Positions 14,984 to 20,370 of a DNA stretch of 64,000 nt are shown here, piece by piece (positions within the stretch are counted from its first letter, which is position 1; each line of letters opens with the position of its first letter). A program made the translations under genes and the position numbers. The DNA is from Cytobacillus sp. NCCP-133 (GTDB lineage Bacteria; Bacillota; Bacilli; Bacillales; Cytobacillaceae). The notes under the pieces were generated by a model. It saw only the letters and a list, made by a program, of their open reading frames with translations. It did no database searches and was not told the DNA's origin. The stretch covers positions 62,001 through 126,000 of the forward strand of contig NZ_BRVM01000008.1 in assembly GCF_026011715.1 (NCBI RefSeq), given 5' to 3'.

Positions 14984-17344
14984 TTAAGCTGGTGCATCAA
15001 TCTCATCTTCAGCAATATGTCTTTCATTATATTCAACATCTTTGCGCGCATTATAGCGGTCTGCTTTTTCCAGTGTAACCGTGATGTTGTAATCGGGGAT
15101 GCCGGCGAATTTTTCGTAACGGCCTCTTGGCAATAGGAAGTTTCCTTCTGGGAAGTGGACTTCTACGTTGCCGCGGGTGATATCGACGAATTTGGCTCTT
15201 CCCTGGAAGACACCGAATCCGTTGTAAAGGACAATGCCTTCGCCTTCTGCGATGCTCAGATCGTGCGCATCTTCAGCATTCATTAAGACATCATAGCGGC
15301 CAGCGCCGTTCAGCGGGTCAATCTCCTTATAGACCATGGAATTGAATTGCTTCCCGCGGCGGGAAGTCACGATAAACTGCCCTTCTTTTTTGCCAAGGGC
15401 CGGAATATCAACAGGAACCAGGCTGCCTTTTCCATCTGGTGTCGGACAGATTCCGCCCTCGCAAAGCCACGCGCCGCCCCACTGGAAGACATCACCAGTT
15501 TTTTTCAGATGCTGGATGCCATCGTAGCTCGGATTCGCCAGGGCAATTTCATCACGGATTTCCTGTGCATTTTTAAAATCAACCAGATGAGCTGTTTCGG
15601 GCTTCACCCGTTTTGCTAAATCAATATAGATTTTCCATTCTGCACGTGCTTCTTCAATCTTGTTCTTATTGCCTTCGATTTCTGGGCTGAAGTACACCAT
15701 CCGCTCAGTGGAAGTGGACGTTCCGCCGCCTTCTTGCTCATAGCGTGTTTTTGCCGGAAGCACGATGACCGCTTCTTTGGCATCAACCAATGTGGATGTA
15801 TTTAGAATAATATCCTGATGGACACGAATATCGAGTTCAGACAATGCTTTTTTATTGAAATCAGGATCTGGCATCGTTTCAAGGAAGTTACCGCCCGATA
15901 GATAATAAAGCTTGATTTTACGCTCATGATCTTCAGGAAGCAGGATATTCTCAAGCGTTACCCCGACAATATCTCCCTGCCATTTTTGCAGTTCAAACCC
16001 CCAAAGGTTTTGAATGCGGTCAAAATTGTCCCCGTAGAAGTCTCCGCCAGGAAGAACGAATGGATCGGCGCCCATTTCTCCGCTTCCCTGTACGGATGAA
16101 TGTCCGCGGAACGGCATTAAGCCATTATGTTTTCTTCCAAGGTGGCCGCGAAGCAATGCAAGATTGGCAACCTGAGAAATATTATCTGTCGCAAATGAAT
16201 GCATCGTTAAGCCAAGCGCCCATGCATAAACAGCATTTTTGCTTTTGGCAAGAAGCTCAGCCAACTCAATAATCCGCCCTTTAGAGACACCGGAAGACTT
16301 TATGATTTCATCCCATGATTGATCTTTCACTTTCTTTTTCAGGTCTTCATAGCCGTTTACATGCTCGTTAACGAAGGAATGGTTAATCGCAGAACCGCGT
16401 TCCGCCTTCTCCATATCGAACCAATGCTTCATGATTCCGTGCATGAATGCGATATCCCCGCCGATGTTCACCTGGTAAAAATCATCCGCAATTTTTGTGC
16501 CAAAAAGAGCAGACTCAGGGTTTGATGGAATCCAGTATTTATCCATTGCAGGCTCTTTGTATGGATTAACAACAATAATTTTTGTTCCGTTTTTCTTCGC
16601 TTCCAGCATATATTTCGATGAAACCGGTGAACTATTCGATGCAACGCTTCCCCAGAATAAAAGAACGTCCGTACCAATCCAGTCAAGATAGTTTGCCGTC
16701 GAAGCTCCGACTCCAATTGACCGCTTCAAAGCTGTTTTGGAAGGGGAATGACAGATACGGCTTGCGTTATCAATATGGTTGGTGCCAAGGAAACGGGCTA
16801 CCTTCCCTGCTGCATAATATGATTCATTTGTAATTCCGCGGCTAGTCAGGTAGAACGCATACTGCTTGGGATCAAGTGCCATCAGCTTCTCCGCGATCAT
16901 GTCCATCGCATCATCCCAAGTGATTCGGGAGAATTTCCGCTCTCCTTTTCGGCGGATCATTGGGTATGGAATACGGCCAAGCTTGCGAAGTTCCGTACTG
17001 TCATATTTGCGAAGCTCATCAATATCAGCATGCAGCATTTCAGGTTTGATCGCACCGGCTGTGTTCAAACGAAGAACATTCAATCGGGTTGTACAGACGT
17101 GAGGTCCCTTCAGCGTCTGGTCATAAAGTCCGGATACACCTAGTGCGCAGCCGTCGCAAACCCCTTTAGTTAAAATATTTGTCGCGTAGCCAAGATTATC
17201 TTTGTTTTCCCATAGAATCTTCGCAGTATCCCTCATATGCTTTGGCTTAATTTTTCCCAGTCCAAATGGAATAGGGCTGACCCAATGTTTCGGATCCGGC
17301 ATGGCTTTTTTCTTCTGCGGTCCTGGATGTTTTGTTTTACCCAC
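14984..17344 (-). CDS. FdhF/YdeP-family molybdopterin oxidoreductase (formate dehydrogenase-like)
   Basis: The 786-residue cytoplasmic enzyme belongs to the bis-MGD family, close to YdeP and formate dehydrogenase alpha subunits. The putative metal ligand is Cys198 in ASRICHSPSKTALK, the position of Sec in E. coli FdhF (U-H-x-P). N-terminal cysteines are GVCDGC (63, 66) and HVC (84), fewer than the classic four-Cys [4Fe-4S] motif. The molybdopterin_binding domain spans the C-terminal 150 residues. Formate oxidation is likely given the OFA-type carrier upstream on the same strand and the shared leader hairpin, but reductase substrates are possible. ATG follows AGGGAG. Confidence 0.88.
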   Translation of the reverse strand: MGKTKHPGPQKKKAMPDPKHWVSPIPFGLGKIKPKHMRDTAKILWENKDNLGYATNILTKGVCDGCALGVSGLYDQTLKGPHVCTTRLNVLRLNTAGAIKPEMLHADIDELRKYDSTELRKLGRIPYPMIRRKGERKFSRITWDDAMDMIAEKLMALDPKQYAFYLTSRGITNESYYAAGKVARFLGTNHIDNASRICHSPSKTALKRSIGVGASTANYLDWIGTDVLLFWGSVASNSSPVSSKYMLEAKKNGTKIIVVNPYKEPAMDKYWIPSNPESALFGTKIADDFYQVNIGGDIAFMHGIMKHWFDMEKAERGSAINHSFVNEHVNGYEDLKKKVKDQSWDEIIKSSGVSKGRIIELAELLAKSKNAVYAWALGLTMHSFATDNISQVANLALLRGHLGRKHNGLMPFRGHSSVQGSGEMGADPFVLPGGDFYGDNFDRIQNLWGFELQKWQGDIVGVTLENILLPEDHERKIKLYYLSGGNFLETMPDPDFNKKALSELDIRVHQDIILNTSTLVDAKEAVIVLPAKTRYEQEGGGTSTSTERMVYFSPEIEGNKNKIEEARAEWKIYIDLAKRVKPETAHLVDFKNAQEIRDEIALANPSYDGIQHLKKTGDVFQWGGAWLCEGGICPTPDGKGSLVPVDIPALGKKEGQFIVTSRRGKQFNSMVYKEIDPLNGAGRYDVLMNAEDAHDLSIAEGEGIVLYNGFGVFQGRAKFVDITRGNVEVHFPEGNFLLPRGRYEKFAGIPDYNITVTLEKADRYNARKDVEYNERHIAEDEIDAPA

Positions 17345-17596: not shown

Positions 17597-18859
17597 TTAG
17601 CTAACTAAACGTTCATTCGCTTCGTTTTGCTTGCGCAATTTTCTAATATCAAATCGTATGAGGATTGAAACGATGAATGCCACAACGAAAAACCCGGCAA
17701 AGCTTGTTAAGCTTGAAGCATAGCTTCCAGTGGAATCCTTCATCCAAGCTGCGAACATGGGGCCGGCAAGTCCGGCAGCTGCCCATGCCGTAAGGATGTA
17801 TCCGTGAATGGCGCCAAGCTGCTTTGTGCCAAAAACATCACCGATAAAGGCTGGGATGGATGAGAACCCTCCGCCGTACATGGTGTAAACAATCGCAAGC
17901 ATAATTTGAAAAAGTACTGCTTCTTTTGTATGAGGCAATAACAAGAACAAAGCAATTTGCGACACGAAGAAAATCGTGTACGTATTCGGGCGGCCAATGT
18001 AATCAGAAACGGAAGCCCATACGAGACGGCCAAGACCGTTGAAAATACCAAGCACCCCTACAAGCGTTGCAGCTTCTGCCGTTGTTAAGCCGATGCTTTC
18101 CTGTGCCAATGGCTTTGCAGCTGATAGAATTGCGATCCCGCATGTAACATTGATGAATAACATAAACCATAAATAGTAAAACCGGGATGTCTTCACTGCT
18201 TCATTCGCTGTTAACTGGGACAAATCCTGTTTGAATTTAATTTTTCCAGTCTTGGCTTTTTCCTTCATGCCTCTTGGTGCCCAATCAGCAGGCGGTTTTT
18301 CCAAATATAAAGAAGATAATGTCATAATGATCAGGTAAGCCGCACCTAGAATAAAGAATGTGCTGGCTGTGCCTACAGATTTAATCAAAGTGTCCATGAT
18401 TGGGCTGGCTACCGCTGCAGCGAAACCAAATCCCATGATGGCAAGTCCAGTCGCAAAACCTCTGCGGTCAGGAAACCATTTTACCAGTGTGGAAACAGGA
18501 GCAATATATCCTACTCCTAAACCGATACCGCCGAGCACCCCATATGTTATGTATAAAAATGGCAAAGAACCAAGGTTTACGGCAAGTCCTGCTCCAAGCA
18601 TTCCAGCGCCAAAAAATCCTGCAGCCAGAAGGCCGGCCTTTCTCGGACCATGTTTTTCAACGAAATGTCCAAGGAATGCTGCAGACAATCCCAAAAATAG
18701 TATGGCCAAACTGAATGTTAATTGCACCTGCTTAGACGTCCAGCCGAACTCTTCGATCAAAGGATTGGTGAAGTTGCTCCAGGCGTATACGGATCCAATC
18801 GAAATGTGAATCCCTACTGCCGAAGCGGCGATCAGCCACCGATTTTTCGTTTTATTCAC
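17597..18859 (-). CDS. MFS transporter, oxalate/formate antiporter (OFA) family, copy 2
   Basis: The 421-residue, 12-TM carrier is highly similar to copy 1 at 580-1845. Shared blocks include NRWLIAASAVGIHISIGSVYAW, PVSTLVKWFPDRRGFATG and FSSIPAFIGDVFGTKQLGAIHGY. A GTG start (18859) with GGGGG 7 nt upstream is chosen over the longer frame to 18895. Being 250 bp upstream of the formate dehydrogenase gene on the same strand, it probably supplies formate (inference). A leader with a strong intrinsic terminator stands between its promoter and the start codon, implying attenuation. Confidence 0.88.
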   Translation of the reverse strand: MNKTKNRWLIAASAVGIHISIGSVYAWSNFTNPLIEEFGWTSKQVQLTFSLAILFLGLSAAFLGHFVEKHGPRKAGLLAAGFFGAGMLGAGLAVNLGSLPFLYITYGVLGGIGLGVGYIAPVSTLVKWFPDRRGFATGLAIMGFGFAAAVASPIMDTLIKSVGTASTFFILGAAYLIIMTLSSLYLEKPPADWAPRGMKEKAKTGKIKFKQDLSQLTANEAVKTSRFYYLWFMLFINVTCGIAILSAAKPLAQESIGLTTAEAATLVGVLGIFNGLGRLVWASVSDYIGRPNTYTIFFVSQIALFLLLPHTKEAVLFQIMLAIVYTMYGGGFSSIPAFIGDVFGTKQLGAIHGYILTAWAAAGLAGPMFAAWMKDSTGSYASSLTSFAGFFVVAFIVSILIRFDIRKLRKQNEANERLVS

Positions 18860-18941
18860 TTCTCTTCCCCCTTTTAAAAAAATTTTGACAGTCAATGCAT
18901 GCTGTGGCCCTTATCAATAAAATCCCGCTGAAATAAAAAAA

Positions 18942-19668: not shown

Positions 19669-19857
19669 AACATCCTCTCTCCTTTTTTTTACTGTCCACT
19701 CCCCTAATTATTAGTCAATAGAACGCACACTTTTTTGGGAAGAAGTGTGTTTGTTTTACGATAGAACGCCGGCGTGCATCTTTGTTGTAAAATGACACAA
19801 AACTTGCCATAATGGTAGAGGCTCTTACATTAAATTTTTGAAAGAAATGGAGATAGT

Positions 19858-20370
19858 ATGCGCAGAAAACTTGTTGTTTTAATGGCAATGGTTTTGCTAA
19901 TCTTGTCAGCCTGCGGCCAGGATTCAGCCCAGAAACCAATTACGTTGAAAGACCAGAATAGTCATGAAGTGACATTTCCGCAGGACAAGCCAAGTCTTTT
20001 CTTCTTTATCACCACCTACACCTGAGGACTCTGTCAGCAGCAACTGGTCGAGTTGCATCAGAACTTGGATAAACTAGAAGGCATGAACGTAAATATGTAT
20101 ATTGTCAGCAATGACCAGCCTGAGCAGCAGCTTGAACTGTATACGGCACTTGAAGAAAAAATGGGTCAAAGCCTCCCTTTTTTATCAGATCCTGAAATGG
20201 AATTGATTGAACAGGCTGACATGAAAAATGGCGACACTGCCTACAGAGGCTATGCCCTAATGGATACAAAAGGAAATATCACATACAATACGATCAATGA
20301 CCATTGGGGCGAAGAAATCGATAAAACAGTTAAAGAAATCAAAGTTGAGTATAAGGAACTCTCCAACTAA
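19858..20370 (+). CDS. Thioredoxin-fold lipoprotein with in-frame TGA; candidate selenoprotein (U56)
   Basis: The frame opens at ATG 19858 (ATGGAGAT upstream). It encodes a lipoprotein signal with lipobox LSAC (Cys19), then a redoxin/AhpC-TSA-like domain, and reads to TAA 20368-20370, 170 codons, broken only by TGA at 20023-20025. The TGA is codon 56 in FITTYT-X-GLCQQQL, exactly the first position of the CxxC redox motif (UxxC). A stem GCAACT/AGTTGC with loop GGTCG starts 14 nt after the TGA, like a bacterial SECIS. Coding quality is good on both sides. Alternative: a pseudogene by a single TGC/TGT-to-TGA change. SelA, SelB and SelC are not in the window. Confidence 0.7.
20040..20057 (+). promoter_or_regulatory. 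SECIS-like hairpin
   Basis: Stem GCAACT (20040-20045) / AGTTGC (20051-20056) with the 5-nt loop GGTCG. The GGT begins 20 nt after the TGA, compared with 18 nt and loop GGUCU in E. coli fdhF. Confidence 0.55.

Follow-up and report, generated by a model that had tools for sequence, protein, structure and literature searches.

The gene at 19858-20370 of the window, by which we mean the whole stretch of 64,000 nucleotides analyzed here from Cytobacillus sp. NCCP-133, almost certainly encodes a selenoprotein, with an in-frame TGA read as selenocysteine (Sec). Judging by its sequence, we call the product a putative membrane-anchored extracytoplasmic thiol oxidoreductase or peroxidase. An earlier reading of this DNA had proposed a Sec-containing extracytoplasmic thiol-redox protein, and the proposal is supported by conservation of the TGA among relatives, by the Sec machinery, and by a hairpin behind the TGA.

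The frame runs from the ATG at 19858 to 20370, and the TGA at 20023-20025 (residue 56) is its only internal stop. The read-through product, MRRKLVVLMAMVLLILSACGQ...FFFITTYTUGLCQQQLVELHQ..., is 170 aa long. The original prediction had described this lone TGA in an otherwise open 170-codon frame, placed it at the first position of a CxxC motif, and pointed to a lipobox, redoxin features, and a hairpin GCAACT-GGTCG-AGTTGC 14 nt past the TGA. All of this held when the frame was read again: no further internal stop turned up, read-through gives T-U-G-L-C, LSAC is present, PF00578 and PF08534 both exceed their gathering scores, and the hairpin was found exactly so at 20040-20056. The list of open reading frames under translation table 11 contains the second half of the gene only (20053-20370, with a TTG start), so annotation is likely to overlook the gene. 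Terminator-like and promoter-like sites found upstream by consensus scan suggest that it stands alone in the window.

Features of the putative selenolipoprotein locus (positions in the window)
Feature	Coordinates	Strand	Basis or remark
Terminator-like hairpin, between preceding ORF and gene	19725..19750	+	Consensus scan only (2 found vs 0.6 by chance)
Promoter-like site TTGTAA-17-CATAAT	19785..19813	+	Consensus scan only (4 sites found vs 2.0 chance expectation)
Likely ribosome-binding site GGAG	19849..19852	+	Sequence; 5 nt 5' of ATG
Putative selenolipoprotein gene	19858..20370	+	170 codons, TGA read as Sec; PF00578 match
Lipobox LSAC, residues 16-19, predicted lipidated Cys19	19903..19914	+	Sequence, by eye
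TGA, putative Sec56, position 1 of U-x-x-C	20023..20025	+	TGA in 53/53 named relatives
Cys59, position 2 of U-x-x-C	20032..20034	+	Invariant in A1 and A2; aligns with AhpC peroxidatic Cys
Putative SECIS hairpin, stem GCAACT/AGTTGC, loop GGTCG at 20046-20050	20040..20056	+	Conservation, covariation
Arg130	20245..20247	+	Invariant in A1 and A2; aligns with conserved peroxiredoxin Arg

Is the TGA a conserved codon or an accident of this genome? In one scan of a genome collection, covering close relatives, TGA occupies the site in all 53 named relatives and a Cys codon in none. The scan was run from alignment A1 with two conserved peptide patterns, neither covering the TGA codon, and was thus without bias toward TGA; its limitation to close relatives means that distant Cys forms could not show up. 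The 53 loci come from Cytobacillus (C. firmus and C. oceanisediminis records among them), Neobacillus, Mesobacillus, Litchfieldia, Aquibacillus, Salinibacillus, Sediminibacillus, Robertmurraya, Niallia, Planococcus, and others. The nearest kin of the window's own copy are in Cytobacillus, in keeping with its genus. The original prediction had left to be settled whether homologues carry Cys or TGA; sister strains and other genera alike have TGA, with no TGC or TGT among the 53. One Cytobacillus-like copy (L051), with 83% identity, comes from a record under the name Pseudomonas sp. ISL-84, which is probably mislabelled or contaminated.

The read-through protein was also used as the query against 61 genomes, comprising the source genome and 60 relatives. 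An intact, near-full-length homologue is present in 31 of them (the source genome included), each with exactly one internal TGA at the same place. Matches at E 1e-3 extend to 37 genomes, six of which were set aside as not being intact homologues: a relic in G011, a fragment in G034, and weak matches to other redoxins in G059, G037, and G056 (no stop) and in G051 (TGA). What matched in G059, a genome that has no selA, selB, or selC, is an AhpC-type protein; the matches in G037 and G056 were excluded on score and identity only. L045 of G051 is a separate Prx-like gene whose TGA lies within GTW-U-PNC, and on its sequence it seems to encode a further UxxC selenoprotein.

A single TGA breaking the frame could mean a sequencing error or a pseudogene, with a Cys codon turned into a stop as the gene decays, and true relics of the gene do exist in G011 and G034. 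Such decay is extremely improbable for the copy in the window, given the TGA in 53 of 53 named relatives, the lack of any other internal stop, and the constraint on synonymous sites of the hairpin. In addition, dN/dS 3' of the TGA is 0.08 to 0.12 when the window copy is compared with those of 8 close relatives, and such purifying selection would not be expected of a pseudogene. Conservation of the TGA across genera refutes the pseudogene reading. The two degraded copies, frameshifted with the TGA kept in L036 (G011) and reduced to a fragment in L047 (G034), are recent losses; both genomes retain selA, selB, and selC.

In a class-level profile search, 21 of 398 genomes gave a match at E 1e-6 or better. 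All 9 matches better than E 1e-20, from 8 genomes including the source genome, have TGA. Six of the 14 weaker matches were read (L108, L109, L110, L116, L117, and L118). L110 has TGA in a genome with selB. L108 (CSAC) and L109 (CPSC), both at E ~6e-12, have Cys and no stop, lie in genomes without selB, and include in L108 the closest Cys form seen. L116, L117, and L118, likewise with Cys, are redoxins of more remote kinship, and the genome of L118 (G442) has selB and a TGA copy. TGA forms in more distant Bacilli (L110 to L115) occur in genomes G072, G156, G207, G227, G312, and G442, all with selB. A phylum-level search gave matches at E 1e-9 or better in 2 of 398 genomes, both TGA and one of them the source genome. 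Going by these sequences, Cys forms exist but were rarely seen. Against 72,556 plasmid records, tblastn returned no match to the gene.

A group of paralogues with the motif TYKUTLC was found at L038, L041, L042, and L102, and the motif is shared by L093, L094, and L099. The N terminus as read in L038, L041, and L042 has Phe in place of the lipobox Cys (SAFG), and to judge from this sequence the membrane anchoring of these paralogues may differ. Genomes G019 and G022 carry both the TYKUTLC group and the window type.

Whether a TGA can be read as Sec hinges on the decoding machinery, and the original prediction stood or fell with its presence in the genome; selA, selB, selC, and selD are all there. 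selA and selB lie on one contig (C13), tRNA-Sec (selC) with anticodon TCA on another (C4), and selD on a third (C18), with a TGA of its own. Across the 61 genomes, selA, selB, and selC exceed the cut-off in 47, the identical 47 for all three. An intact TGA gene is found in 31 of these 47 genomes compared to 0 of the 14 without the three genes (Fisher p 6.5e-6 over the 61 genomes, kinship ignored); among the other machinery genomes, 14 lack the gene and 2 have relics only. selD is present in 50 of the 61 genomes, and the TGA is absent from selD in the three without selA, one of which is a partial match. The original prediction had also called selenoproteins rare in Bacillaceae, which is not so for this genus, where 33 of 36 sampled genomes have Sec machinery.

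The matches listed for Sec formate dehydrogenase, recognized as a TIGR01591 match with one TGA, put it in at least 16 of the 61 genomes. In the source genome, none was seen among the 5 listed of 7 TIGR01591 matches. The gene at 14984-17344 of the window, earlier taken for a formate dehydrogenase, instead encodes an FdhF/YdeP-family oxidoreductase (TIGR01701, 798.7 bits against 582.15), and it adjoins an L-lactate-type MFS transporter gene (17597-18895).

Constrained synonymous sites and a covarying pair in the aligned sequences indicate that the hairpin downstream of the TGA is under selection. The hairpin starts 14 nt 3' of the TGA, with 20 nt from TGA to loop. Rules for bacterial SECIS elements in PMC13188914 include a loop of 3 to 9 nt, an upper stem of 4 to 16 bp, a G in the first two loop positions, a spacing of 16 to 37 nt, and an MFE of at most -7.5. 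The hairpin is of this kind, with its 6-bp stem, 5-nt loop with G, 20-nt spacing, and MFE of -10.3 kcal/mol for the stretch (-8 for the hairpin alone). Folded once, the stretch is no stabler at -10.3 kcal/mol than shuffled sequences (z 0.15), and a slightly different cut of it folds otherwise. As its folding energy is unremarkable, the case for the hairpin is made by conservation and covariation, not by energy. Rfam gave only chance matches on the locus and no SECIS match.

Of the six stem pairs, four are the same at all 54 loci and one is broken at 2 of them; G stands second in the loop at every locus (54 of 54). The covariation is limited to one of the six pairs, the four invariant pairs being uninformative. 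This pair, 20043:20053, is A-U in 36 loci, G-C in 14, G-U in 4, and A-C in 0; its bases sit in the codons of Gln62 and Leu66, and the changes are synonymous in both. Changes into or out of G-C number 10 over the protein tree, at least 8 of them forced by supported branches. For supported branches, 9 independent pairs gave joint changes of the two sides 7.1 times on average and never opposite ones (median p 0.016); a control site with 8 pairs gave 1.7 together and 0.2 apart, too few differing pairs for significance either way. Codon choice is restricted as well: Leu66 is TTG or CTG in 54 of 54 loci (background 23% in the same genes) and Leu63 is CTG or CTA in 54 of 54 (background 19%). In alignment A3, which holds 48 of the 54 loci as 47 distinct rows, 99.3% of cells pair compared to 17 to 38% in slid controls. 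Three of five covariation measures exceed every shuffle on A3, and the other two do not, because only one pair varies on both sides. A GGTC also stands in hairpin loops of the PrxU-like gene of the source genome and of a relative's fdhA; in the fold run, selD of the source genome had no GGTC hairpin loop.

The protein is predicted to have a peroxiredoxin-like thioredoxin fold. PF00578 matches with E 2.1e-14 and 54 bits, compared to a gathering score of 26, and scores better than PF08534 (E 1.4e-10, also over its gathering score). Cys19 of the lipobox is present in at least 90% of alignments A1 and A2. The AlphaFold2 model, built from A2 (the window protein and 37 relatives), has a pLDDT of 90 and a pTM of 0.81 and forms one fold spanning both sides of the TGA. 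Its best Foldseek matches are AhpE, Bcp, and AhpC at a TM-score of about 0.6. The top rows from VIA-align are thiol peroxidase, PrxQ, AhpE, and Bcp, with Z about 17 and rmsd 2.4 to 2.8 over 135 to 143 residues, and Z is 15.6 to 17.4 across the best 50 matches listed.

A single predicted fold bears on a different reading of the TGA, in which it is decoded as a different residue, Trp or Cys, with no part played by SelB, or in which the gene stops there and translation begins anew at TTG 20053 in a second ORF. The ORF at 20053-20370 does have a TTG start, as a restart would need. Recoding or restart is nonetheless very improbable, since U-x-x-C forms the active site of one predicted fold covering both halves, none of the 14 sampled genomes that lack selA, selB, and selC has an intact homologue, and the hairpin appears to be under selection.

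How, then, might a Sec-containing protein of this fold work? The classical peroxiredoxin motif is PxxxTxxC (PMC13188914). This motif is not kept here: the protein has T52-x-x-x-U56-x-x-C59, with Cys59 on the peroxidatic Cys in AhpC and peroxiredoxin alignments. In profile alignments, one of three of which is ungapped there, Sec56 aligns with or adjoins the Ser/Thr that precedes that Cys by three residues, and Thr52 falls at the position of the motif Pro. With Cys59 on the peroxidatic Cys and Sec56 three residues earlier, Sec stands at the thioredoxin-type nucleophile position, and from this arrangement we infer a dithiol-type redox cycle between Sec56 and Cys59. Could the selenoprotein instead act as a peroxiredoxin-like peroxidase at the cell surface rather than as a disulfide reductase? 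The predicted peroxiredoxin fold and the invariant Arg130 speak for it, Arg130 being aligned with the conserved active-site Arg of peroxiredoxins; the absence of PxxxTxxC, with its positions occupied as described, and UxxC as the usual dithiol-type motif speak against it. Peroxidase action is thus quite conceivable, if somewhat improbable.

Known biology would have the dithiol-type mechanism proceed as follows. SelB with Sec-tRNA-Sec would bind the hairpin, and Sec would be inserted at residue 56. After export and lipidation at Cys19, the protein would be held at the cytoplasmic membrane by its lipid anchor, facing outward, which would put a selenoenzyme on the outer face of this membrane in Gram-positive soil bacteria. 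There, the Sec56 selenolate would attack an oxidized substrate (a disulfide, a peroxide, or a similar oxidant), Cys59 would resolve Sec56 as a selenenylsulfide, and an extracytoplasmic thiol donor would reduce the selenenylsulfide. Arg130 may be retained from a peroxiredoxin active site.

Gene neighborhoods offer a possible, if unlikely, physiological setting. Within 6 kb at the 54 loci, no conserved operon was found, only lineage-specific neighbors. On the same strand and at most 350 nt upstream, there is a DoxX gene in 4 of the 54 loci (L078, L089, L095, and L098), an MhqO-like dioxygenase gene in 3 (L090, L092, and L097), an azoreductase gene in 1 (L079), an HxlR regulator gene in 1 (L066), and a c551-type cytochrome gene in 6 Neobacillus-type loci. 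These kinds were identified with Pfam on one to three examples each; one of the three MhqO-like genes was checked and matches 3oaj MhqO (E 3.9e-55). The Mhq, Cat, and YodB regulons of Bacillus subtilis include MhqO, DoxX, and azoreductase. From such neighbors, the selenolipoprotein might serve in quinone/electrophile stress beside the DoxX, MhqO, and azoreductase proteins, and DoxX genes are so few (49 in 31 genomes) that chance adjacency is unlikely. However, of the 54 loci only 9 have a DoxX, MhqO-like, azoreductase, or HxlR neighbor. Few independent events lie behind them, since the loci with MhqO make up a single clade and those with DoxX also fall inside one, and the window locus has no such neighbor; we therefore regard a role in this stress as unlikely. 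More doubtful still is the wider proposal that almost Sec-obligate surface selenolipoproteins of Bacillaceae and relatives, acting in quinone/electrophile stress, are in many of these genomes, together with PrxU and SelD, a main reason for keeping the Sec code. It is raised because the matches listed include no Sec formate dehydrogenase for 21 of the 31 genomes with an intact gene, and the lipoprotein may help to explain why Sec machinery is retained where no such enzyme is seen.

Another candidate selenoprotein gene lies in the source genome. A PF00578 search there gave 11 matches, two of them with TGA: the gene of the window and an AhpC-type gene on contig C7 (L124, C7:117230-117616). L124 belongs to AhpC/TSA, has its TGA at the peroxidatic position in TFV-U-PTEL and a hairpin loop with GGTC, and is presumably PrxU-like, a name we assign to it here.

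Compared with known families, the protein looks like a member of a new, so far uncatalogued selenoprotein family, its neighbors in the catalogue having been compared by description. Table 1 of a 2026 catalogue (PMC13188914) has 119 selenoprotein families, among them a Prx-like thiol:disulfide oxidoreductase (PF00578, UxxC/UxxU) and Redoxin (PF08534, UxxC), and of its rows only these broad PF00578/PF08534 UxxC entries fit. The terms lipoprotein, Bacilli, Bacillota, and Firmicutes gave no hit in the main text of PMC13188914. On the protein, every NCBIfam model stays below its cut-off, and search listings from the open-access (PMC) literature showed no selenolipoprotein of Bacillaceae or redoxin family of the window type. 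A family present in dozens of species thus seems to have no entry in the 2026 catalogue, as far as its Table 1 and main text go, and to be without an NCBIfam model over cut-off.

The closest relations in that table are the Prx-like PF00578 selenoproteins, which are alike in PF00578, UxxC, and a peroxiredoxin-like thioredoxin fold; the protein of the window differs as a predicted lipoprotein, a distinction drawn from the family description and not from a representative's sequence. The Redoxin selenoprotein shares PF08534 and UxxC, PF00578 being the better match here, and is likewise set apart by description. Among the nearest NCBIfam models are the SelL-related redox protein NF040769 (29.9 bits compared to a cut-off of 120) and the TUGYCR redoxin NF053656, which by its name shares T-U-G-x-C (20.5 compared to 100). 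Selenoperoxiredoxin PrxU (TxxU) has the AhpC/TSA superfamily and Sec in common with the protein, whereas the PrxU-like L124 differs from it in having Sec at the peroxidatic position and no lipobox in the frame read. ResA/StoA and Etrx-type proteins are membrane-anchored, extracytoplasmic thioredoxin-fold proteins with a CxxC-type site, and the ResA model gives a weak profile match (9 of 38 members at E 1e-3); they have Cys where the window protein has a predicted Sec. We file the system as canonical Sec insertion in a known fold, in which the lineage, the location, and the near-obligate use of Sec are new.
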